NCBI GenBank assembly: GCA_029101305.1 | Contig: JAQXQS010000011.1 | Coordinates: 1 to 53,411, forward strand | Reading direction: 5' to 3' | From: Clostridia bacterium | GTDB taxonomy: Bacteria; Bacillota; Clostridia; Lachnospirales; Lachnospiraceae | DNA length: 53,411 nt | Shown here: in pieces, positions 1 through 40,768 of the stretch | How positions within the stretch are numbered: the first letter of the stretch is position 1 | How the letters are laid out: every line of letters begins with the position of its first letter | Notes under the pieces: generated by a model | Databases searched by the model: none | The model's input: the letters and a program-made list of their open reading frames with translations, nothing else | What the model was told of the DNA's origin: nothing | Position numbers and translations under genes: made by a program

Positions 1-62
1 ACAAAATCTTCCACAAATTGTGACGCACATCTTGCAGAAAGTCTTTTGGGCGGCATGCTCTA
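1..62 (+). repeat. Right arm of dispersed palindromic repeat
   Basis: This segment matches the right arm of the full palindromic repeat at 38550-38713 almost base for base; both share TTGTGACGCACATCTTGCAG. Only part of the copy is inside the window. Read on the minus strand it begins TAGAGCATG, and that TAG is the stop codon of the sensor kinase gene. The terminal motif has drifted from the TAGAGCGTGTTTGAAAAA seen in the intact copy. Confidence 0.8.
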
Positions 63-1781
63 GGAAAGCTCGGCCTGGTTCAGATGAATCGTAATCTCCA
101 CAACAGCGCCATGGGGTGTCCCATTATAGCATCGGATGTTGGCGCGGTTCTGATAAATAAGGGAAAGCCGCTCCATACAGTTATAAATACCGGTTCCCAG
201 AAGTTCGTTTTTTACATGGGATTTCTGGTATTCCCCGATAGCCTCCAGAATTTCAGGAGAGAAGCCTTCGCCCTGATCCTGTATACATATCTGAATCACA
301 AATGGTTCAATCTGTGTAGCCTGAATGCGCAGCATAATCTGATCGTTTTCGTCCTGGCCGTATTTCAAACTGTTTCCAACAAAGCTTTCCAACAGAAACG
401 GTGGAATCGGAACGATATCAATTCCATTTTCGCATTGGATTTCGTAGTTTAGTTTTCTTGGAAAACGGATTTTCTGGAGATTAAGAAAATTCTCAATATG
501 CTCCAGCTCTTGCCCAAGATTTACATAACGGGATTCCACATTTACCACATAACGGTAATATTTGGAAAGAAGCCGGATGATCTTCCGTGTGGCTTCCACA
601 TCCCGGTTGCTGTAGGTATACAGCGTATTCAGGGAGTTCAGGATAAAATGAGGCTGGATTTGCTGGGAAAGATAACGCAGCTTGGTTTCGTTCTGCTCCA
701 GCTCCTGCTGGTAGATCTGAATCTGCATATCTTTTAACTGTTCCATCATGTGATTGAACTCTGTTTCGATTTTCTGAAACTCCAGACTGGCTCCAGGCGT
801 TGTCTGGATGCGGTGGTCGATATCGCCGCCCGCAATCTGCTCAATGCCTTGTGTCAGACCTTTCACCGGAGTAAGTACCCAATGGGAAATGGCAAGGATG
901 ACACATAAGATCAGTAACAGGGAAAGGATTACCACAGCAAGAAAATTATGGGAGTACCAGTGCTCGGAAAGGGAAAAATCAGTATCTCCTAATATTCTGA
1001 CAATGTAAACTCCAGGGTGGAGTACCTGGCGGGAAAGGGTAACCTGGTTTTGTTCTTTCACAGTTGTTCCCAGTGTTTCCCTGGAAATTGAGGTTATATT
1101 CTGTCCCTGTGCTGGATGATTCTGCCTGGAAGTCAGTACATTTCCTACAAAATCGGTGAGCAGGTATCCTGTATTGTCGGTCTGGAAATTGCCGCTTTCA
1201 TTCTGACAGATATAGGAAAGCAGTGCATCATAGGAAATCCAGGCGCCGAGACAATAGCCGTCTTTTGGGTAAAGCCAGTACAGATAGTAACCGTTTTCGG
1301 TGGAAATTGTATGCCAGAGCCTGGCAGCCGTTTTTGTTTCCTCATTTTGAGTCGTTGCATCTTTGATAACAGTAGTCATCTGCGGGTTTACCTGATCGTT
1401 GAGAAAAAGCTCCTGATCCGGATAATAAACGAAGATGTTCTCCATAAAAGGATAGATTTCCTTTATGGAAGAAAGCTGTTCTTTTATACTGATCACCAGG
1501 CTCCAATGCTTCTGGGTGTCTGACTGGGGAAAGGCGGTCAGCTGATGAAAACTGCTGTTGTTAATAGGAAGATATAAAAGGGTTTCTTCCAACAGGTCAA
1601 AAATATGATCCATGGAAGAGGCGTATAATGCAAGCTCGTCTTCAGCCTTGGTAATCTGCTGCTCCTGCCAAGTGTCACGGGTAGTACTACCATTCAGATA
1701 GACAATGAAAATAACAGGAAGGACGATCAGCAGGATGACGATGGTGATCTTGCCGGTAAGTGTCTGGATAAAATGTTTCAT
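60..1781 (-). CDS. YesM-type sensor histidine kinase
   Basis: Membrane sensor kinase of about 573 residues. A first membrane helix lies near residues 10-30, followed by an extracellular sensing region of about 250 residues, a second helix (FLAVVILSLLLILCVILAI), a HAMP linker, a His_kinase domain with the phosphoacceptor in QQIQPHFILNSLNTLY, and a C-terminal ATPase domain containing GTGIYN. This order is that of the YesM/LytS class, which usually works with an AraC-type YesN regulator on sugar-uptake genes. No such regulator is inside the window; it may lie beyond the left edge. The ATG at 1781 is preferred over the in-frame ATG at 1793 because GAGG sits 6 bases before it. The gene diverges from the GH43 gene and ends on the TAG of a dispersed repeat. 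Confidence 0.9.
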   Translation of the reverse strand: MKHFIQTLTGKITIVILLIVLPVIFIVYLNGSTTRDTWQEQQITKAEDELALYASSMDHIFDLLEETLLYLPINNSSFHQLTAFPQSDTQKHWSLVISIKEQLSSIKEIYPFMENIFVYYPDQELFLNDQVNPQMTTVIKDATTQNEETKTAARLWHTISTENGYYLYWLYPKDGYCLGAWISYDALLSYICQNESGNFQTDNTGYLLTDFVGNVLTSRQNHPAQGQNITSISRETLGTTVKEQNQVTLSRQVLHPGVYIVRILGDTDFSLSEHWYSHNFLAVVILSLLLILCVILAISHWVLTPVKGLTQGIEQIAGGDIDHRIQTTPGASLEFQKIETEFNHMMEQLKDMQIQIYQQELEQNETKLRYLSQQIQPHFILNSLNTLYTYSNRDVEATRKIIRLLSKYYRYVVNVESRYVNLGQELEHIENFLNLQKIRFPRKLNYEIQCENGIDIVPIPPFLLESFVGNSLKYGQDENDQIMLRIQATQIEPFVIQICIQDQGEGFSPEILEAIGEYQKSHVKNELLGTGIYNCMERLSLIYQNRANIRCYNGTPHGAVVEITIHLNQAELS

Positions 1782-1812
1782 GGAAATCCTCATAAAATAG
1801 TGAGTTTATTTA

Positions 1813-18159: not shown

Positions 18160-20043
18160 ATGGGAGAGAAATTACAGTTTACAGAGCTTGACCAGTATCT
18201 GTTTGGTCAGGGAACCCATTATGATATTTACAGGAAGCTTGGTGCACATCCGGTGAAAGATGGGGATGAAGAAGGCGTTTATTTTGCAGTATGGGCACCG
18301 AATGCACAGGCTGTTTCCGTAATCGGCGAGTTTAACAATTGGGATGAAGAAGCTGACCAGATGACAAAGGTTGGACCCATTGGTGTTTTTGAGACCTTTG
18401 TCCCGAAAGCGAAGATTGGTCAGCTGTATAAATTTTTCATTATCGGAATAAACGGAGAGCATATTTATAAAGCAGATCCTTACGCAAATGAAGCAGAGCT
18501 GCGCCCGGGAACCGCCTCCAGGATCACTGACATCAGGGATTATAAATGGAAAGACGGTACCTGGATGAAGAACCGGCAGAAATTTGACGAGACGAAAGAT
18601 GCCATGGCTATCTATGAAGTACATCCAGGTTCCTGGATGAAGCACCCGGCGACGGAGGAGAATGAAAAAGGCTTTTACAATTACAGAGAGCTTGCAGTAA
18701 AGCTTGCCCAGTATGTGAAGGATATGGGCTATACACATGTGGAACTGATGGGAATCGCGGAGCACCCATTTGACGGATCCTGGGGCTATCAGGTTACCGG
18801 TTATTATGCTCCTACCTCCCGTTACGGAACTCCACAGGATTTTAAATATATGGTAGATTATCTTCACAGACAGAAGATCGGAGTCATTCTGGACTGGGTG
18901 CCGGCACATTTCCCGAAGGATGCGCATGGCCTGGTGAATTTTGATGGAACGGCTGTTTATGAGCATGCAGATCCCAGACAGGGAGAGCATCCGGACTGGG
19001 GAACCAAGATCTACAATTATGGCAGACCGGAGGTCAAGAATTTTCTGATTGCCAATGCTTTGTTCTGGATTGAGGAATGTCATGTGGATGGTCTTCGTGT
19101 TGATGCAGTTGCATCCATGTTGTATCTGGATTATGGCAAAAATGATGGACAGTGGGTTGCCAATAAATATGGTGGAAACCAGAATCTGGAAGCGATTGAA
19201 TTCTTCAAGCATCTGAATACCGTTGTCCTTGGAAGAAACCATGGAACTGTGATGATCGCAGAGGAATCTACTGCGTGGCCGAAGGTGACTGGAAAGGCTG
19301 AGGATGATGGCCTTGGATTTTCCCTGAAGTGGAATATGGGCTGGATGAATGACTTCCTGGAGTATATGAAGCTGGATCCTTATTTCCGTAAATTTAACCA
19401 TAATAAGATGACCTTTTCCATGACTTATGCGTATAGCGAGAAGTATGTGCTGGTGATTTCCCATGATGAGGTGGTTCATCTGAAGAAGTCCATGCTGGAG
19501 AAAATGCCAGGAGAGCCAGATGATAAGTTCCGGAATCTGAAAGCAGCATATACATTTATGTTCTGTCATCCTGGAAAGAAGCTTTTGTTCATGGGACAGG
19601 AGTTTGGCCAGCTCCGTGAATGGAGTGAGGAGCGGGAGCTTGACTGGTTCCTTCTCGGAGAAGAGAAGCATCGTGACCTGAAGGATTTTGTGCAGGCACT
19701 TCTTAAGATGTACCGCAAATATCCGGCACTTTACGGAATGGACAATGACCCATCCGGATTTGAGTGGATCAATGCAGACGACGGAGACAGAAGTATCTAT
19801 AGCTTTGTGAGAAAGTCACCTACTGGGCGGAATAATCTTCTGGTAGTATGTAATTTTACACCTGTAGACCGGCCGGATTACCGCGTAGGGGTTCCGAAGA
19901 AGAAGCAATATACACTGGTTCTGGACGAGAATGGATCAAGTGCAAAGAAGGTATTTAAAGCAGAAAAAAGTGATTGCGACAATCGGCCGTTTTCTTTTGC
20001 GTATCCGCTTCCTGCTTATGGAGTGGCGGTTTTCCAGTACTAG
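18160..20043 (+). CDS. glgB: 1,4-alpha-glucan branching enzyme
   Basis: Glycogen branching enzyme of 627 residues, GH13 family. An N-terminal CBM48 domain (VYFAVWAPNAQAVSVIGEFN) precedes the (beta/alpha)8 barrel. The catalytic nucleophile is in VDGLRVDAVASMLY, the acid in MIAEESTAWP and the third carboxylate in VISHDEVVH. The C-terminal beta domain is complete and the length is typical. No other glycogen gene (glgA, C, D or P) lies near, so it is detached from the usual operon. The RBS is GGGAGGT. The stop codon TAG at 20041-20043 is also the first three bases of a dispersed palindromic repeat. Confidence 0.95.
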   Translation: MGEKLQFTELDQYLFGQGTHYDIYRKLGAHPVKDGDEEGVYFAVWAPNAQAVSVIGEFNNWDEEADQMTKVGPIGVFETFVPKAKIGQLYKFFIIGINGEHIYKADPYANEAELRPGTASRITDIRDYKWKDGTWMKNRQKFDETKDAMAIYEVHPGSWMKHPATEENEKGFYNYRELAVKLAQYVKDMGYTHVELMGIAEHPFDGSWGYQVTGYYAPTSRYGTPQDFKYMVDYLHRQKIGVILDWVPAHFPKDAHGLVNFDGTAVYEHADPRQGEHPDWGTKIYNYGRPEVKNFLIANALFWIEECHVDGLRVDAVASMLYLDYGKNDGQWVANKYGGNQNLEAIEFFKHLNTVVLGRNHGTVMIAEESTAWPKVTGKAEDDGLGFSLKWNMGWMNDFLEYMKLDPYFRKFNHNKMTFSMTYAYSEKYVLVISHDEVVHLKKSMLEKMPGEPDDKFRNLKAAYTFMFCHPGKKLLFMGQEFGQLREWSEERELDWFLLGEEKHRDLKDFVQALLKMYRKYPALYGMDNDPSGFEWINADDGDRSIYSFVRKSPTGRNNLLVVCNFTPVDRPDYRVGVPKKKQYTLVLDENGSSAKKVFKAEKSDCDNRPFSFAYPLPAYGVAVFQY

Positions 20044-20106
20044 AGCATGTTAAAAGGCTTTTTGTAAGCTGTGCGTTGGAATCTGCACGCTCCGCTTTAC
20101 GGTATA
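20041..20106 (+). repeat. Degenerate copy of palindromic repeat
   Basis: TAGAGCATGTTAAAAGGC at the glgB stop resembles the terminus of the intact repeat at 38550-38713 read from its right end. The following ATCTGCACGCTCCGCTTTAC resembles the intact copy's left arm. The copy looks internally deleted. The rest of the gap to 20286 contains only a promoter. Confidence 0.6.
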
Positions 20107-20202
20107 CTGGATTTTTCTGTATGAAAAATGCCGAAAGAACGAGGAGAAACAAGGTCCTGTTTGTGACTGTTGGGGATTTTTCTCAGAAGGTCAAAAATTT
20201 GT

Positions 20203-20555: not shown

Positions 20556-20586
20556 GGGGGATGTGACATAGTCATGTCCCCTTTTC
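20556..20586 (+). terminator. Terminator after 77-residue protein
   Basis: GGGGATGTGAC and GTCATGTCCCC pair with two internal mismatches around a three-base loop, followed by TTTT. It lies about 35 bases after the stop codon. Confidence 0.7.
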
Positions 20587-20663
20587 TAACAGTAAGGAAC
20601 CAGGGGGTATATGTGCTTCCTGGTCATAGCATTTTGTGCAAAAATAGAAAGGGGAAATATAAA

Positions 20664-21881
20664 ATGGTAAAGATTGACATTATTTCCGGTTTTCTTGGAG
20701 CCGGTCAGACAACTCTTATTAAGAAACTTCTGAAAGAAGCTTTTGCAGGTGAGCAGGTAGTGCTTATCGAGAATGAGTTTGGTGAGATCGGCATTGATGG
20801 TGGTTTCCTGAAGGATGCTGGAATTGAAATCCGTGAGATGAATTCCGGATGTATCTGCTGCTCTCTGGTTGGCGATTTCGGTGCTTCCCTGAAGGAAGTT
20901 GTAGAGAAATACCATCCGGACCGCATCCTGATCGAGCCATCCGGTGTAGGCAAGCTTTCTGACGTTATCAAGGCTGTACAGGGAGTAGAAGAGGATGTTG
21001 ATATCCAGCTGAACAGCTATACAACTGTTGTAGATGCGAAGAAATGCAAAATGTACATGAGAAACTTTGGCGAATTTTTCGATAACCAGGTACAGTATGC
21101 CGGTGCCATTATCATGAGCCGTACGGATATTGTAGATGAGAAGAAGGCAATGGAGTCCATGGAGCTTCTTCGTTCTATTAATGAGAAGGCTGCAATCATC
21201 ACTACCCCTATTGAGAAGCTTGATGGAAAGAAAATCCTGGAGGTTATGGAGCATCCGGTATCCTTAGCTGACGAGCTGCTGGAAGAAGAGCATGAGCATC
21301 ATCATCACCATCACCACGACCATGACGATGAGTGCGGTTGCGGACATGACCATGATCATGAGCACCACCATCACGACCACGATGAGGAATGCGGTTGCGG
21401 ACATGACCATGAGCATGAGCACCACCATCACGACCACGATGAGGAATGCGGTTGCGGACATGACCATGATCACGAGCACCACCATCACGACCACGACGAG
21501 GAATGCGGTTGCGGACATGACCATGAGCATGAGCACCACCATCACGACCATGATGATGAGTGTGGCTGCGGACATCACCATGACCATCACCATCATCATG
21601 CAGACGAAGTATTTACCAGCTGGGGACGTGAGACGATTAAGAAATTTACAAGAGAAGGCCTTGAGAAGATGCTTGAGAGCCTTTCTGCTTCAGAGGAATA
21701 TGGCGTGATCCTCCGTGCGAAGGGAATGCTTCCGGCAGAGGACGGAACCTGGATTTACTTTGATATGGTTCCGGAAGAAACTGAGATCAGGGAAGGATCT
21801 CCGGAATATACCGGACGTCTTTGCGTGATCGGTTCCAAACTGAACGAGGACAAGCTGGCAGAGTTGTTCGGCGTAGCCTAA
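20664..21881 (+). CDS. COG0523 metal GTPase with His/Cys repeats
   Basis: Protein of 405 residues related to CobW/ZNG1/YciC-type metallochaperone GTPases. The N-terminal GTPase domain has the family's metal site CICC in MNSGCICCSLVGDF, and the switch region VLIENEFGEIGIDG. The P-loop reads GFLGAGQTT: Gln15 stands where the family has an invariant Lys. Residues about 209-313 are a His/Asp/Glu-rich loop with five Cys-Gly-Cys-Gly-His units. A CobW_C-like domain follows (LRAKGMLPAEDGTWIYFDMV). Such proteins move or store zinc, nickel or cobalt. The next gene is a second GTPase of the same kind, 18 bases away, so the two probably act together. The ATG at 20664 follows AAAGGGG. Confidence 0.88.
   Translation: MVKIDIISGFLGAGQTTLIKKLLKEAFAGEQVVLIENEFGEIGIDGGFLKDAGIEIREMNSGCICCSLVGDFGASLKEVVEKYHPDRILIEPSGVGKLSDVIKAVQGVEEDVDIQLNSYTTVVDAKKCKMYMRNFGEFFDNQVQYAGAIIMSRTDIVDEKKAMESMELLRSINEKAAIITTPIEKLDGKKILEVMEHPVSLADELLEEEHEHHHHHHHDHDDECGCGHDHDHEHHHHDHDEECGCGHDHEHEHHHHDHDEECGCGHDHDHEHHHHDHDEECGCGHDHEHEHHHHDHDDECGCGHHHDHHHHHADEVFTSWGRETIKKFTREGLEKMLESLSASEEYGVILRAKGMLPAEDGTWIYFDMVPEETEIREGSPEYTGRLCVIGSKLNEDKLAELFGVA
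21287..21603 (+). repeat. 57-bp coding minisatellite, His/Cys-rich
   Basis: TGCGG(T)TGCGG-type cores recur at 21333, 21390, 21447, 21504 and (as TGTGGCTGCGG) 21561, exactly 57 bases apart. Each unit encodes 19 residues of the form HDHDEECGCGHDHEHEHHH. The frame is kept, so the array can change length without breaking the protein. Confidence 0.93.
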
Positions 21882-30570: not shown

Positions 30571-31737
30571 ATGAATAAAAAAGAAATTTCCGAGATCAAG
30601 AAGCAGTTTACGCCAGCTAATTGTAACATTACCCGTATTTGCGGATGCTACGTGGATGGCGATAAAAACAAGAAAACAGAGCTGAAAGAGGCATTTCTCT
30701 CTCTTTCCGAGGAAGAAATGTTCAAGTATTTTGACATTTTCAAAAAATCACTTTCCGGTACATTGGGAAAGAACCTGATGAACATGGAGTTCCCATTACA
30801 GGAGGAAAAAGAAGGGGGTAAGCATGAATTCCTCATGAAGCTTCGCACCAGCAAGCTGAAGGATGATGCCCTGCTTGAGAGCTTTTATGACAAAATTATC
30901 GAAAATTACGATTATCCGGAAAATTACTACATAATTCTGGTCCACGGGGTATATGATATTCCGGGAAGAACCTCTGACGGTATTGATATGGATGATGCTT
31001 CAGAGGAAATTTATGAATATATTTTGTGCAGCATTTGCCCGGTGAAATTATCAAAAGCAGGGCTTTGCTATAACGCGGAAGCCAACCTGATCCAGGACCG
31101 CATCCGCGACTGGTTAGTGGAAATGCCGGAAAATGGTTTCCTTTTCCCGGTATTTAATGAGAGAAGTACAGATATTCATGGCATGCTCTATTATTCCAAG
31201 AATGCAGAGCAGCTTCATGATATTTTTGTGGACGAGATGTTTGGGTGTACGGCACCTCTTTCCGCAGGCGGTCAGAGAGATTCCTTCAATATGCTGGTGG
31301 AGGAAACCCTTGGGGATGACTGTCAGTACGATACTGTGGTAAATATCCATGAGAAGCTGAATGAGATCATTGAGGCGCAGAAAGACTCACCGGATCCGGT
31401 AGTGCTCACCCAGTCTGAGGTGAAGCGCCTTTTCGAAGACTGCGGGGTAGAAGAGGAGAAGCTGGAAACATTTGATAACCAGTATGAAGCTGTTGCAGGA
31501 GAAAAAGCAACGATGGTTGCCTCGAACATAACCAATACCCGTAAATTCGAGATCAAAACGCCGGATGTGGTGATCCATGTAGAGCCGGAGAAAGTGGAGC
31601 TGGTGGAAACCAGGATCATTGACGGGCGTAAGTGCCTGGTGATTCCTATGGAAGATGTGGAAATCAACGGAATCCGGGTGAGAATGGGCAGTGATGAAAG
31701 CGATGACAGCGATAACTATGAGGAGGAATCTGTATGA
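30571..31737 (+). CDS. DUF4317 family protein
   Basis: Cytoplasmic protein of 388 residues beginning MNKKEISEIKKQFTPANCNI and ITRICGCYVDGDKNKKTELK, which I recognise as the opening of the DUF4317 family common in Lachnospiraceae. The middle contains YYIILVHGVYDIPGRTSDGI and a Cys-containing ILCSICPVKLSKAGL. The last third is acidic. No catalytic motif is evident and the family has no established function known to me. Its last codon overlaps the LysR start in ATGA, so the two are translationally coupled. Confidence 0.88.
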   Translation: MNKKEISEIKKQFTPANCNITRICGCYVDGDKNKKTELKEAFLSLSEEEMFKYFDIFKKSLSGTLGKNLMNMEFPLQEEKEGGKHEFLMKLRTSKLKDDALLESFYDKIIENYDYPENYYIILVHGVYDIPGRTSDGIDMDDASEEIYEYILCSICPVKLSKAGLCYNAEANLIQDRIRDWLVEMPENGFLFPVFNERSTDIHGMLYYSKNAEQLHDIFVDEMFGCTAPLSAGGQRDSFNMLVEETLGDDCQYDTVVNIHEKLNEIIEAQKDSPDPVVLTQSEVKRLFEDCGVEEEKLETFDNQYEAVAGEKATMVASNITNTRKFEIKTPDVVIHVEPEKVELVETRIIDGRKCLVIPMEDVEINGIRVRMGSDESDDSDNYEEESV

Positions 31738-32645
31738 CATTGGCACAACTCCGATACGCCATAACGGTAGCCAATTCCAATTCCATGAATGAGGCGGCCC
31801 GCACCCTTTTTATTTCCCAGCCAAGTCTTTCTTCCGCAATCCGGGAACTGGAGGAAGAAATCGGGGTGGAGCTTTTCCGCAGGACTAACCGGGGAATTTC
31901 TGTCACTCCTGAGGGTGAAGAATTCCTGGGTTATGCCCGACAGGTGGTAGAGCAGTACGAGCTGATCGAGTCCAAATATGTTTCCAAGGAACACACCAAG
32001 AAGAAATTCAGTGTATCCATGCAGCATTATACCTTTGCGGTAAATGCTTTTGTGGAAATGGTAAAACAGTTCGGAATGGATGAATACGAATTTGCAGTCC
32101 ATGAGACACGGACTTATGACATTATTACGGATGTAAAGGATTTTAAAAGTGAGATCGGTATTCTTTACCTGAATGAATTCAATCATAAAGTCCTGGAAAA
32201 ATTATTCCATGAGTTTAATCTGGAATTTCATCCGATCCTGGAATGCAGTATTTATGTCTATATGTGGAAAGGACATCCCCTTGCAGACCGGGAGCTGATC
32301 ACACTGGAGGATCTCCGAGAGTATCCCTGCCTTTCTTTTGAGCAGGGAACCTATAATTCCTTCTATTTTGCAGAGGAGGTTCTGAGCACTTATGAATATA
32401 AGCGTCTGATCAAAGCCAATGACCGTGCCACTCTGTTGAATCTGATGGTTGGTCTCAACGGTTATACACTTTGCTCGGGAATTATCTGTGAGGAACTAAA
32501 TGGTTCTGATTACTGTGCTGTCAAGCTGGATTCTGATGAGGTTATGACCATCGGTTATCTTGCACGCAAAGGCACTACGATCAGTAAGCTGGGCCAGAAG
32601 TATTTGGAGGAGATCGCGAAGTACAAGGATAAAGCACTGCGTTAG
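31734..32645 (+). CDS. LysR-type transcriptional regulator
   Basis: Protein of 303 residues. The N-terminal winged helix is canonical: TLAQLRYAITVANSNSMNEA and LFISQPSLSSAIRELEEEIG, then VELFRRTNRGISVTPEGEEF. The C-terminal part is a periplasmic-binding-protein-like effector domain. Unusually for this class, it is co-oriented with its neighbours rather than divergent from a target. It is coupled to DUF4317 by ATGA, and the methionine importer lies next downstream, so that operon is a candidate target. The TAG stop at 32643 is the first three bases of a dispersed repeat. Confidence 0.93.
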   Translation: MTLAQLRYAITVANSNSMNEAARTLFISQPSLSSAIRELEEEIGVELFRRTNRGISVTPEGEEFLGYARQVVEQYELIESKYVSKEHTKKKFSVSMQHYTFAVNAFVEMVKQFGMDEYEFAVHETRTYDIITDVKDFKSEIGILYLNEFNHKVLEKLFHEFNLEFHPILECSIYVYMWKGHPLADRELITLEDLREYPCLSFEQGTYNSFYFAEEVLSTYEYKRLIKANDRATLLNLMVGLNGYTLCSGIICEELNGSDYCAVKLDSDEVMTIGYLARKGTTISKLGQKYLEEIAKYKDKALR

Positions 32646-32674
32646 AGCGTGTTTGAAAAGTCCTCCACAAATAG
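32643..32674 (+). repeat. Repeat terminus at LysR stop codon
   Basis: TAGAGCGTGTTTGAAAAG matches 17 of 18 bases of the intact repeat terminus at 38550. CCTCCACAAAT, next to it, resembles the intact copy's inner right arm. The remainder up to about 32695 holds a separate small inverted repeat, GCTATAG and CTATAGC. Confidence 0.75.
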
Positions 32675-37744: not shown

Positions 37745-37867
37745 TTTCAGGTGACTGTTCAGCGCTTGTTCTGTTATGAGAAAATAGCAAAGCGGATCAT
37801 AAATATCCGTTTAATGCCAGGGATATCTGCAAAAAAGCAGGTAGCTCCGGCTAGAAGGGAGGATACC

Positions 37868-38476
37868 ATGAAACCACAGAAACAGGTGATCATTTCCATC
37901 GGACGAGAGTTCGGAAGTGCAGGACATGAGATCGCAGAGCGAATCGCGAAACGCTACGGTCTTTCCCTGTACGATCACAATCTTTTAAGAGAGGTGGCAG
38001 ACAGCCATAATGTAAAGACTGAAGAGCTTGAAATCTTTGACGAGATGAAGCATAACAAATTCCTTTACCGTACTGTTAAGGGAATGAGCAGTTCTCCGGC
38101 AGATAACGTAGCTCTTATGCAGTTTAATTTCCTTCGTGAGAAGGCAGATAAAGGCGAGTCCTTCGTAGTTGTTGGACGATGCTCCGAGACGATCCTGAAG
38201 GATTACCCAAGCCTGATCTCCATTTTTATTCTTGGTGATATGGAGCATAAGGTAGCGCGTGTAGCCCGCCTTTATGGAAAATCAGACAAAGAAGCAGAGC
38301 GCTTTATCAAAGAGAAAGACAGAAAGAGAAAGAAATACCACGACAGCCACTGCAATTCCAAATGGTCAGAGTCACATACTTATGACCTGAGCCTGAACAG
38401 CAGTACACTGGGCGTGGAAGGAAGCGTTGAATTTTTGTCTGAGTATATTGACAAAAGGATATCGAGAATGAAATAA
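37868..38476 (+). CDS. Cytidylate kinase-like protein
   Basis: Cytoplasmic protein of 202 residues of the cytidylate-kinase-like family. The P-loop region reads IISIGREFGSAGHEIAERIA, where the usual GxxGxGKS becomes GREFGSAGHE, a common variant in this family. RYGLSLYDHNLLREVA and the arginine-rich lid KEKDRKRKKYHDSHCNSKW follow. The substrate is uncertain; the true Cmk is normally a separate longer gene. GGGAGG precedes the ATG at 37868. It follows the ion transporter by about 120 bases and ends in a strong hairpin. Confidence 0.86.
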   Translation: MKPQKQVIISIGREFGSAGHEIAERIAKRYGLSLYDHNLLREVADSHNVKTEELEIFDEMKHNKFLYRTVKGMSSSPADNVALMQFNFLREKADKGESFVVVGRCSETILKDYPSLISIFILGDMEHKVARVARLYGKSDKEAERFIKEKDRKRKKYHDSHCNSKWSESHTYDLSLNSSTLGVEGSVEFLSEYIDKRISRMK

Positions 38477-38487
38477 TAAGATTAATG

Positions 38488-38535
38488 ACAAAGGTTCTGC
38501 CAGGACGCATGGGAGTGTCATGGCAGGACCTTTGT
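38488..38535 (+). terminator. Terminator after kinase-like gene
   Basis: ACAAAGGTTCTGCCA pairs with TGGCAGGACCTTTGT with one mismatch, a long and stable stem. No clear T run follows, but the position just after the gene suits an end of transcription. Confidence 0.65.
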
Positions 38536-38549
38536 GTATACAAAAGGGC

Positions 38550-38713
38550 TAGAGCGTGTTTGAAAAATCATTCCTGCAATCTGCGCGCCCCACTTTGCGG
38601 TATATTTTGCCCTCTTTCAGTCAGCGTAGCCCGCTACGCCTCCCTCAATCGGACAAAATCTCCCACAAATTGTGACGCACATCTTGCAGAAAGCCTTTTT
38701 CAAACACGCTCTA
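38550..38713. repeat. Complete 164-bp palindromic repeat (MITE-like)
   Basis: The element has perfect 18-base terminal inverted repeats: TAGAGCGTGTTTGAAAAA at 38550-38567 and its exact complement at 38696-38713. At the exact centre is GCGTAGC-CC-GCTACGC (38624-38639). The two arms between match each other as an imperfect palindrome along their whole length, for instance CTGCAATCTGCGCG on the left and CTGCAAGATGTGCG on the right strand. It encodes no protein. Other copies or remnants are at 1-62, 20041-20106, 32643-32674 and 41735-41750. It could be a non-autonomous mobile element or a REP-like structure. Confidence 0.88.
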
Positions 38714-38782
38714 AAAATGGTAAGAGAGAAAATAAGCCATTGGGAAGCTTTTGTATTTGAAAAGGATGAGAAGGAGAACGAC

Positions 38783-40768
38783 ATGTTTCTTGAAAAAAAC
38801 AGAGACCGGATAGAAAAAGACTTTGAAGATTTTTCCAGGGAACTGCCCCAGAAAGCCGAAGAAATAAAGAAAAGAATGGAAGCCCTAAACGCAGATATTG
38901 TGATTGGAATGAAATATCTGTACAGCAATATGCCTTACAGCGACATAGGTAATTACACTTTTGATACCTACCTGGATTATGTGCAGCAGGGAATCTGTCT
39001 ATGGGAAAATTCCCCTTATGTGAAGAAATACCCGGAGCTTTATTTCCTGAACTATGTGCTGTTTCATCGGACAAATGACGAGGAAATCAAGCCCTGCCGT
39101 ACTTTTTTCTGGGAAAAGATAAAGGAGCGTATTCAGGGCATGAATATGATGGAAGCAGCGCTGGAGATCAATCACTGGTGTGCCGGGGAAGTAATGTATC
39201 AGGGTACAGATATGCGGACCGGTTCTGCACTGGAGATTTACAGAAGTGGAGTCGGACGCTGTGGAGAGCAGGCTGTTTTTGTAGTAAATGTACTGCGAAG
39301 CGCGGGAATCCCAGCCAGAATGGTGTATGTACCAAGGTGGTCCCATCGTGATGATAATCATGCCTGGGTGGAAGTCTGGTGCGATGGCGACTGGCATTAT
39401 CTGGGAGCCTGTGAGCCAGAACCAGTTCTGGATAAGGGGTGGTTTACAGGTGAGGTATCAAGAGCGATGATGATCTGCTCCAGATGGTACGACCGGGCGA
39501 TGCCTGATGAAGAAGTAATCGGCAAGGTGGGAATGAATCGCATTCTGAACCTTCTTGGAAGATATGCAAAGACCAGGCGGATCACCATCCAGGTGGAAGA
39601 TCTGGATGGAATGCCGGCAGCGGGAGCAAAAGTGCAGGCTGAAGTGATGAATTACGGTGGATTTTCCCCGGTGGCACAGATGCTGACAGATGAAAATGGA
39701 TGCATTTCTTTTGAAACCGGGCTGGGCAGCTTATTGATCTGCGCTGTTTATGAGGGGGCTTACGGGGAAAAGGTAGTTGATACAAGAGAAGCAGAGCGCT
39801 TTGTGTGTACCCTTGGCGAAGAGTATGCAGATGAGCTGTGGGTGGATTTCGATATGAATGCGCCGGAAGAAAACTGCCAGACCAGCTGGGATGTTTCCAA
39901 AGAGCAGGAGAAGGAAAATAATCTCCGCGTAGCTGCAGAAGCAGAACATTGCCGTGAAAAAATTGAGAAATTCCAGCCACTGTGGAAGCGTTGTCTGTTT
40001 GGTCATACCCTGGAAGAAGTGGAACCTATGATGGCTGTTTTGTCAGAGAAAGACAGGAGGGATGCTTTTCCAGAAGTACTGGAGGGACATTATCAGGAGG
40101 CGTCCGTTTACCGGGAATTTAACCCGGACGAGATATACATTCCTTATGTATGGAATCCACGTGTGGAAAATGAGGTTCTGACGAAGTGGAGAAAGAAAAT
40201 TCTTGGCTGCTTTGACAAAAAGCAGCGGGACGCTTTTGAGGCGGATCCAAAGAGAATCTGGACCTGGATCCAGGAAAATATTTCCGTGCGAAATGACAAA
40301 GAACATCTGACTGCATATACTACTCCGGGAGCAGCACTGGATCTGAAAATTGCGGGAGAGAAGTCCCAGAAGGTATTGTTTGTGGCGATCGCAAGATCCC
40401 TTGGAATCCCGTCCCGTCTTAGCCCAACTGATGGAGCGATTGAATACTGGGATGGAATGAAATTTGTAGCGGTACTTGAAAAGAGCCGCAAGGAAGCCCA
40501 TCTGGTCGTTATTGCAGAAAAAAGTGAGGACTGGGTTTATCATCAGAACTGGACACTGGCAGTAACAGATGGACAGGGATATCTCACACTGGATTTCGGC
40601 GAATGTACATGGAAAGATGGAAAGCTGGAACTGGATATCATGCCTGGAGATTACCGGATTCTCACCGGAAGCCGTCTGCCAGATGGGAATATCCTAGGGA
40701 AAAGATATGATTTCCATATAGAAAAGAATGAAGTGAAAAAGGTGGAACTGGAGCTTCGCGTGAGGTAA
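38783..40768 (+). CDS. Transglutaminase-like protein
   Basis: Cytoplasmic protein of 661 residues. A helical N-terminal region of about 125 residues leads to a transglutaminase-like papain fold, with catalytic Cys in SGVGRCGEQAVFVVNVL, His in DDNHAWVEVW and the acidic residue in YLGACEPEP. A beta-sandwich of the carboxypeptidase-regulatory type follows (ITIQVEDLDGMPAAGAKVQA). The C-terminal region has a second, Cys-less, transglutaminase-like portion (TTPGAALDLKIAGEKSQKVL, ARSLGIPSRLSP). It may act as a protease or cross-linking enzyme; with no signal peptide its place is unclear. The ATG at 38783 follows AAGGAG. Upstream in-frame ATGs lie in or next to the repeat element and lack an RBS. Confidence 0.83.
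   Translation: MFLEKNRDRIEKDFEDFSRELPQKAEEIKKRMEALNADIVIGMKYLYSNMPYSDIGNYTFDTYLDYVQQGICLWENSPYVKKYPELYFLNYVLFHRTNDEEIKPCRTFFWEKIKERIQGMNMMEAALEINHWCAGEVMYQGTDMRTGSALEIYRSGVGRCGEQAVFVVNVLRSAGIPARMVYVPRWSHRDDNHAWVEVWCDGDWHYLGACEPEPVLDKGWFTGEVSRAMMICSRWYDRAMPDEEVIGKVGMNRILNLLGRYAKTRRITIQVEDLDGMPAAGAKVQAEVMNYGGFSPVAQMLTDENGCISFETGLGSLLICAVYEGAYGEKVVDTREAERFVCTLGEEYADELWVDFDMNAPEENCQTSWDVSKEQEKENNLRVAAEAEHCREKIEKFQPLWKRCLFGHTLEEVEPMMAVLSEKDRRDAFPEVLEGHYQEASVYREFNPDEIYIPYVWNPRVENEVLTKWRKKILGCFDKKQRDAFEADPKRIWTWIQENISVRNDKEHLTAYTTPGAALDLKIAGEKSQKVLFVAIARSLGIPSRLSPTDGAIEYWDGMKFVAVLEKSRKEAHLVVIAEKSEDWVYHQNWTLAVTDGQGYLTLDFGECTWKDGKLELDIMPGDYRILTGSRLPDGNILGKRYDFHIEKNEVKKVELELRVR

Follow-up and report, generated by a model that had tools for sequence, protein, structure and literature searches.

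Copies of a palindromic repeat in the window, the whole 53,411-nucleotide stretch of DNA analysed here, begin with the bases TAG, and at three places this TAG is exactly the stop codon of the adjoining gene. Does the repeat seek out stop codons, is it kept beside genes as a combined stop codon and 3' structure, or does the coincidence have a more ordinary origin? We consider it very likely that the match to stop codons is real and mostly a by-product of the YTAR (CTAG/CTAA) target of a MITE, whose first base, G, rebuilds TAG on insertion. The coincidence would then be explained by ordinary rules: target sequence, element tip and selection.

The 164-bp element and its copies in the window

The copy at 38550 is the only full-length one in the window (Table 1). 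The perfect 18-base inverted ends, central hairpin and pairing arms reported for it in the initial annotation were all confirmed. The hairpin midpoint, 38631.5, is the exact midpoint of the element, the arms are 73% complementary over 81 nt, and folding gave z scores of -6.8 as DNA and -8.2 as RNA, none of 200 shuffles being equally good. Only one of the six reading frames is open (54 codons; + strand, second frame). As an insertion adds 162 bp, or 54 codons, an in-frame copy would be translated through. Counted from the first base of the TAA with which the cytidylate-kinase-like gene ends, the copy starts 76 nt further on. On its other side, a mechanically called ORF in the region of the transglutaminase-domain gene (38672-40768) has its start inside the element.

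The TAG triplets of the three other copies proved to be the stops of genes for a histidine kinase, a branching enzyme (glgB) and a LysR regulator, as had been stated. The claim that this register holds in three of three cases stands for the gene-adjacent copies; counted over all copies in the window it is three of four, the 38550 copy lying off any stop. The exact 17-base end is present only at 32643 and 38550, and at 32643 the likeness to the MITE arms ends after 17 nt. At 60 and 20041 the ends are degenerate and went undetected even with 3 mismatches allowed. Set against the genome-wide count of 11/80 sampled insertions, stop-located copies are exceptionally frequent in the window.

Table 1. 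Copies of the element, its parts and the adjoining genes (window coordinates)
Feature	Position	Strand	Detail	Basis
MITE copy, degenerate end	1..62	-	cut by contig start; TAG 60-62 (minus) is the histidine kinase stop	
Histidine kinase gene	60..1793	-		
glgB (branching enzyme) gene	18160..20043	+	stop TAG	
TAG at tip of degenerate MITE copy	20041..20043	+	glgB stop; within CTAG 20040-20043	
Degenerate MITE copy 3' of glgB	20041..20115	+	extent approximate	judged by eye
LysR regulator gene	31734..32645	+	stop TAG 32643-32645	
Solitary MITE end	32643..32659	+	exact 17-base match; TAG is the LysR stop	
Cytidylate-kinase-like gene	37751..38476	+	upstream of the 38550 copy; own stop TAA 38474-38476	
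Full-length MITE copy	38550..38713	.	164 bp (TA-GAGC...GCTC-TA)	end, repeat and fold comparison
Left terminal inverted repeat	38550..38567	+	TAGAGCGTGTTTGAAAAA; TA is target duplication, GAGC... element proper	
Central hairpin, perfect	38624..38639	.	GCGTAG-CCCG-CTACGC	repeat search and folding
Right terminal inverted repeat	38696..38713	-	perfect complement of left repeat	
Transglutaminase-domain gene	38783..40768	+	downstream of the 38550 copy	

Some other features of the window were recorded. CTAG is about ten-fold depleted over positions 1-53411 (13 observed against 136 expected), and 3 of the 13 occurrences are MITE tips. An Rfam search of the window found only a Clostridiales-1 RNA (RF01699, 53 bits; 1766-1918, + strand), which overlaps the start of the histidine kinase gene and is unrelated to the MITE. 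Five overlapping repeat copies with 57-bp spacing lie at 21241-21599, within the ORF 20574-21881. Two contigs of this genome start inside MITE copies, the window itself (1-62) and C208 (1-107), and the repeats probably break the assembly. Given that MITE repeats start false reading frames and break assemblies, a record of the family may help annotation.

Family, target site and likely source

The 17-base end matched this 3.52-Mb genome (G000) 156 times with at most 2 mismatches, against 2 matches for the reversed control. In the part of the genome that was sampled, 16 copies have both ends, 10 of them with a length of exactly 164 bp. Matches to the element (E <=0.001), some of them partial only, were found in 9 of 41 genomes (its own, 24 of the same genus and 16 of the same order), and all nine belong to the genus. 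End matches total 236 in genome G021 and 80 in G023. Among the matches listed, exact ends also occur in the Lachnospiraceae Anaerobutyricum hallii, Eisenbergiella tayi, Faecalicatena faecalis and Oliverpabstia intestinalis, and single 17-base matches occur in other phyla as well. Plasmid records gave no match to the element; phage records gave four matching contigs, all unannotated and human-faecal. One 4.3-kb contig deposited as bacteriophage from human faecal samples (L347, MT839353.1) carries at 1127-1290 a full-length copy that is 85% identical.

The element is a MITE of a new family of well-known kind. It is short (164 bp) with 18-bp perfect terminal repeats, it has no transposase gene of its own, its single open frame having 54 codons, it is flanked by a duplicated TA, and it has its ends in common with an autonomous element. 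A literature search that included the end sequence itself found no description of this family. The present analysis thus documents an abundant Lachnospiraceae MITE family together with its likely IS5-family source.

That autonomous element is an insertion sequence of about 883 bp whose ends, TAGAGCGTGTYTGAAAA, are the same as those of the MITE. Of 64 genus genomes, five encode a PF13340 transposase. It lies inside an 882-884-bp IS with MITE ends on both sides in G054, G023, G005 and G059, and outside any unit with these ends in the fifth genome, G004. The IS, present in 13 copies in G054, encodes its transposase in two frames that match NF033580, 'IS5 family transposase' (E 1e-36 and 1.8e-39), PF13340 and the DDE domain PF01609. 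It may belong to the IS427-like subgroup of IS5. Likeness between MITE and IS is confined to about the terminal 18-20 bases; since their ends are alike, we infer that the MITE is mobilised in trans by the IS transposase. In the genome under study no PF13340 match was found among 14 candidates, and G001 and G021 also have none. The mobiliser in this genome may have been lost, be missing from the incomplete assembly or be of another type; the MITEs of these three genomes would now be orphans, or their source is unassembled. At loci L112-L286, no transposase was recognisable from the ORF starts between end pairs 0.6-3.5 kb apart.

An IS630/Tc1-mariner element would be another conceivable parent because such elements also duplicate TA, and PF13358 transposases exceeded the cut-off in 14 of 60 genus genomes. 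However, the ends found at 12 of 18 PF13358 loci (TAGTGT..., TAGTAC...) all differ from the MITE's GAGCGTGTTTGAAAA, no PF13358 is present in G000, G001 or G021 though MITE ends are many there, and the right ends are carried by the IS5-family element instead. We rejected this origin, which appears to us barely credible. At one locus, L360, a MITE-type end abuts an IS630 unit without bounding it.

All 52 two-ended MITE insertions in G000, G023 and G021 are at YTAR (CTAA 28, CTAG 21, TTAA 3) with TA on both sides, in a search that required the flanking TA and left Y and R free. When 68 named loci were added, 78 of 82 two-ended copies were at YTAR and 4 elsewhere. Allowing for the number of sites that intergenic DNA supplies, the MITE uses CTAG about 70 times as often as TTAA and 6 times as often as CTAA. 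The IS copies behave similarly: all 16 have CTAG (13) or TTAG (3) flanks, the left end being preceded by C or T, respectively, and the right TA being followed by G; one has CA in place of the left TA. In PMC10359306, YTAR is given as the highly conserved target-duplication motif of IS5. Insertions at CTAA and TTAA also read TAG at the junction, which places the G after the TA within the element; the duplication is therefore TA. Abutting MITE copies have a single TA in common.

Stop codons as insertion sites

A TAA or TAG stop that follows C or T would itself be a YTAR target. Insertion there would leave TA followed by the element's own G, and hence a TAG stop whatever the old one had been, with the protein unchanged. 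Insertions within coding sequence would mostly be purged by selection, as their depletion suggests, so that the survivors would be intergenic or on stops. The preferred target, CTAG, is itself strongly depleted in the window; one kind of place where it persists is a TAG stop preceded by C.

Stop codons are hit by 22 of 163 insertions (11/80 in G000, 5/49 in G023 and 6/34 in G021). These were collected in G000 from 100 of the 156 end matches, those listed, plus the flanks of those places, in G023 from 49 stretches, and in G021 from 31 stretches, 30 of them around exact end matches. Only ends starting with TA and having at most 2 mismatches were taken, which places the degenerate glgB and kinase copies outside the 11/80. 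For the named loci, 68 of 80 were kept, including unclassified bacteria, and 12 titled as other phyla were dropped; 38 more stretches from the search that gave exact ends in named genomes were left aside. Genes were called with a simple in-house caller, at three cut-offs.

We compared these counts with the supply of YTAR sites. With sites weighted by target, the weights being derived from the same insertions as tested, 22 of 154 non-coding insertions are on stops where 15.5 are expected (P 0.057). With unweighted sites each genome has a weak excess (P 0.097, 0.20 and 0.059). Adding the named loci gives 31/228 on stops, against 18.5 expected unweighted (P 0.003) or 22.7 weighted (P 0.046). Stricter gene calls give, with weights, 29/228 against 19.8 (P 0.024) and 26/230 against 14.7 (P 0.004). 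A 1.4-1.8-fold excess at stops may remain.

Such an excess could reflect a true preference, beyond YTAR, for stops or for transcript 3' ends, mediated for instance by a host factor or by some structure at the 3' end, and the density of insertions per weighted site does peak within 60 nt 3' of genes (5.89; all 163 insertions). The density on stops themselves, 3.73, is however below that of this neighbouring flank and near those of 5' flanks within 200 nt (2.81 up to 60 nt, 3.17 at 60-200 nt); it is 2.90 at 60-200 nt 3' of genes, 0.67 and 0.53 beyond 200 nt from genes and 0.17 in coding sequence. Because the density on stops does not exceed that of the 3' flank, stops are ordinary gene-edge space for the MITE. 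Selection against insertions in promoters and regulatory regions would yield an equally mild bias. Intergenic copies have no preference for convergent spacing either: 15 of 122 are convergent (88 tandem, 19 divergent), against 147 of 1023 background YTAR sites (674 tandem, 202 divergent). A true preference is thus unlikely in our view.

Comparison with homologues shows what the copies beside glgB and LysR landed on. The best 30 loci per search were considered (59 and 60 of 60 genomes matched) and 29 were compared for each gene. All 29 glgB orthologues, which have no element there, share the position of the stop (14 TAA, 13 TGA, 2 TAG), as do 22 of 29 LysR homologues (12 TAA, 5 TAG, 5 TGA). The 21 best-scoring LysR homologues are all among these 22, and the seven that end elsewhere score lower. 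The element therefore came to lie on glgB and LysR stops that were already there, and it truncated neither gene. The suggestion of insertion at stop codons survives in the sense that existing stops are hit. It fails in the sense of a special target, stops being a subset of YTAR sites.

These homologues also rule out, for glgB and LysR, the idea that the TAG is a premature stop made by insertion within coding sequence. As a general account this reading draws on the fact that any in-frame TA would yield TAG, and a few frames do end at a TGA 11 nt into an end (C194:1718, C139:14728). An in-frame YTAR, however, is already a stop codon, and we hold truncation to be most improbable.

Conversion of a stop is best seen at locus L450 of G021, where a 164-bp copy occupies exactly the space separating convergent genes for an EAL-domain protein (531 aa counted from the first ATG, in a frame that stays open up to where the stretch ends) and an AraC-family protein (315 aa), each ending with TAG at one tip. 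If the element and one TA are removed in thought, CTAA remains, with a TAA stop on the + strand and a TAG stop on the - strand overlapping. To judge from its sequence, L450 would be the clearest case of a TAA stop turned into TAG, with overlapping convergent stops separated.

Could selection maintain the ends because they serve both as stop codons and as 3' hairpins or terminators, as had also been proposed? The predicted hairpin is very stable and many copies lie just 3' of genes. Against this, only 5 of 22 stop-located copies keep both ends, compared with 52 of 163 insertions overall in the three genomes, so that 17/22 and 111/163 are without a recognisable second end; this low proportion of two-ended copies at stops makes selection for a 3' hairpin less credible. 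A consensus scan for Rho-independent terminators (a GC-rich hairpin followed by a T run) found 0 sites in 38300-38960. Nor did any end motif with up to 3 mismatches start at the stop in the 58 glgB and LysR homologue loci, in a scan that would miss copies as degenerate as the glgB one of the window; two of the loci have a 3-mismatch end match 58 nt downstream, and one has a flank of 50 nt only. Together with the lack of convergent enrichment, these results speak against the proposal, and we think selection of this kind very improbable.

The by-product reading leaves room for one further thought, that a CTAR target and a first base G are an evolved, stop-codon-safe design, with a small true stop preference left over. 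We regard this as improbable, too. If true, such a design would give an IS5-type MITE at least 150 ends per genome in a genome that avoids CTAG: insertion on a TAG or TAA stop would cost nothing, and even overlapping convergent stops could be parted, each becoming TAG (L450). The target, tip and selection rules set out here offer a simple null model for statements that repeats 'supply' stop codons.

Mobility, decay and comparison with known elements

Two genomes, G054 and G074, are 97-99% identical in aligned stretches and differ in their insertions. At the CTAG tip of one MITE the IS is present in G054 only, G074 having no IS there. Conversely, one MITE of G074 is absent from G054 (L495 against L496). 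The element-less allele is short of six further bases of the flank, and the target TA is one of the losses; the site is thus not a clean empty target, and imprecise loss or some different event fits better. One IS locus of G054 was also used to look for an empty site, and no orthologous site was found (none in G074, one short match in G001). A second, unrelated palindromic element of about 160 bp (GTACATCG...CGATGTAC) was also observed in G054 (L499 2284-2446, L376 1830-1992). It is inserted at CTAG with an exact TA duplication, the CTAG being empty in G074 (L500, L504), and its targets are tips of the 164-bp MITE or of the latter's IS.

Once inserted, copies of the MITE would decay, often through deletions at short direct repeats that leave 25-bp, 43-bp and single-end remnants. 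In G000, 78 ends (at most 2 mismatches) have no partner, and the point at which their likeness to the arms ends varies widely. A 25-bp form accounts for 13 of the 78, with a tip that is exact or has one mismatch, and a few break at 43 bp; both break points fall at short repeats common to arm and tip. The 25-bp remnant, 19 nt of one end followed by GCTCTA, is strikingly frequent and is found in several species, also in G023 and the named loci (examples in G000 are C103:5595-5619, C158:4011-4035 and C188:3044-3068). We considered and dropped the idea that it is a mobile micro-element: break points vary, and deletion at the GCT repeat is a simpler account.

The family may be compared with several known systems. 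The parent IS resembles the IS5 family in its transposase (NF033580) and in the YTAR target given for IS5 in PMC10359306; here, however, TA alone is duplicated rather than YTAR, and the MITE has no transposase. Passages of PMC5896051 report TA termini for most bacterial MITEs, and a copy of QMITE2 of Coxiella that, lying at the 3' end of a gene, changes the position of the protein's stop. QMITE2 and the Correia elements of Neisseria are likewise small inverted-repeat elements, with other sequences and hosts; systematic regeneration of stop codons does not appear in those passages. RUP of Streptococcus pneumoniae, as described in PMC2229807, is a 107-bp repeat with about 108 copies and TA in its target, its mobilisation being attributed to an IS with similar ends, IS630-Spn1. 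It thus resembles the present MITE as an abundant short repeat with a TA in its target and an IS with similar ends as the presumed mobiliser. It differs in being linked to IS630 and in that every one of its six frames contains stops; the 164-bp MITE has one open frame.
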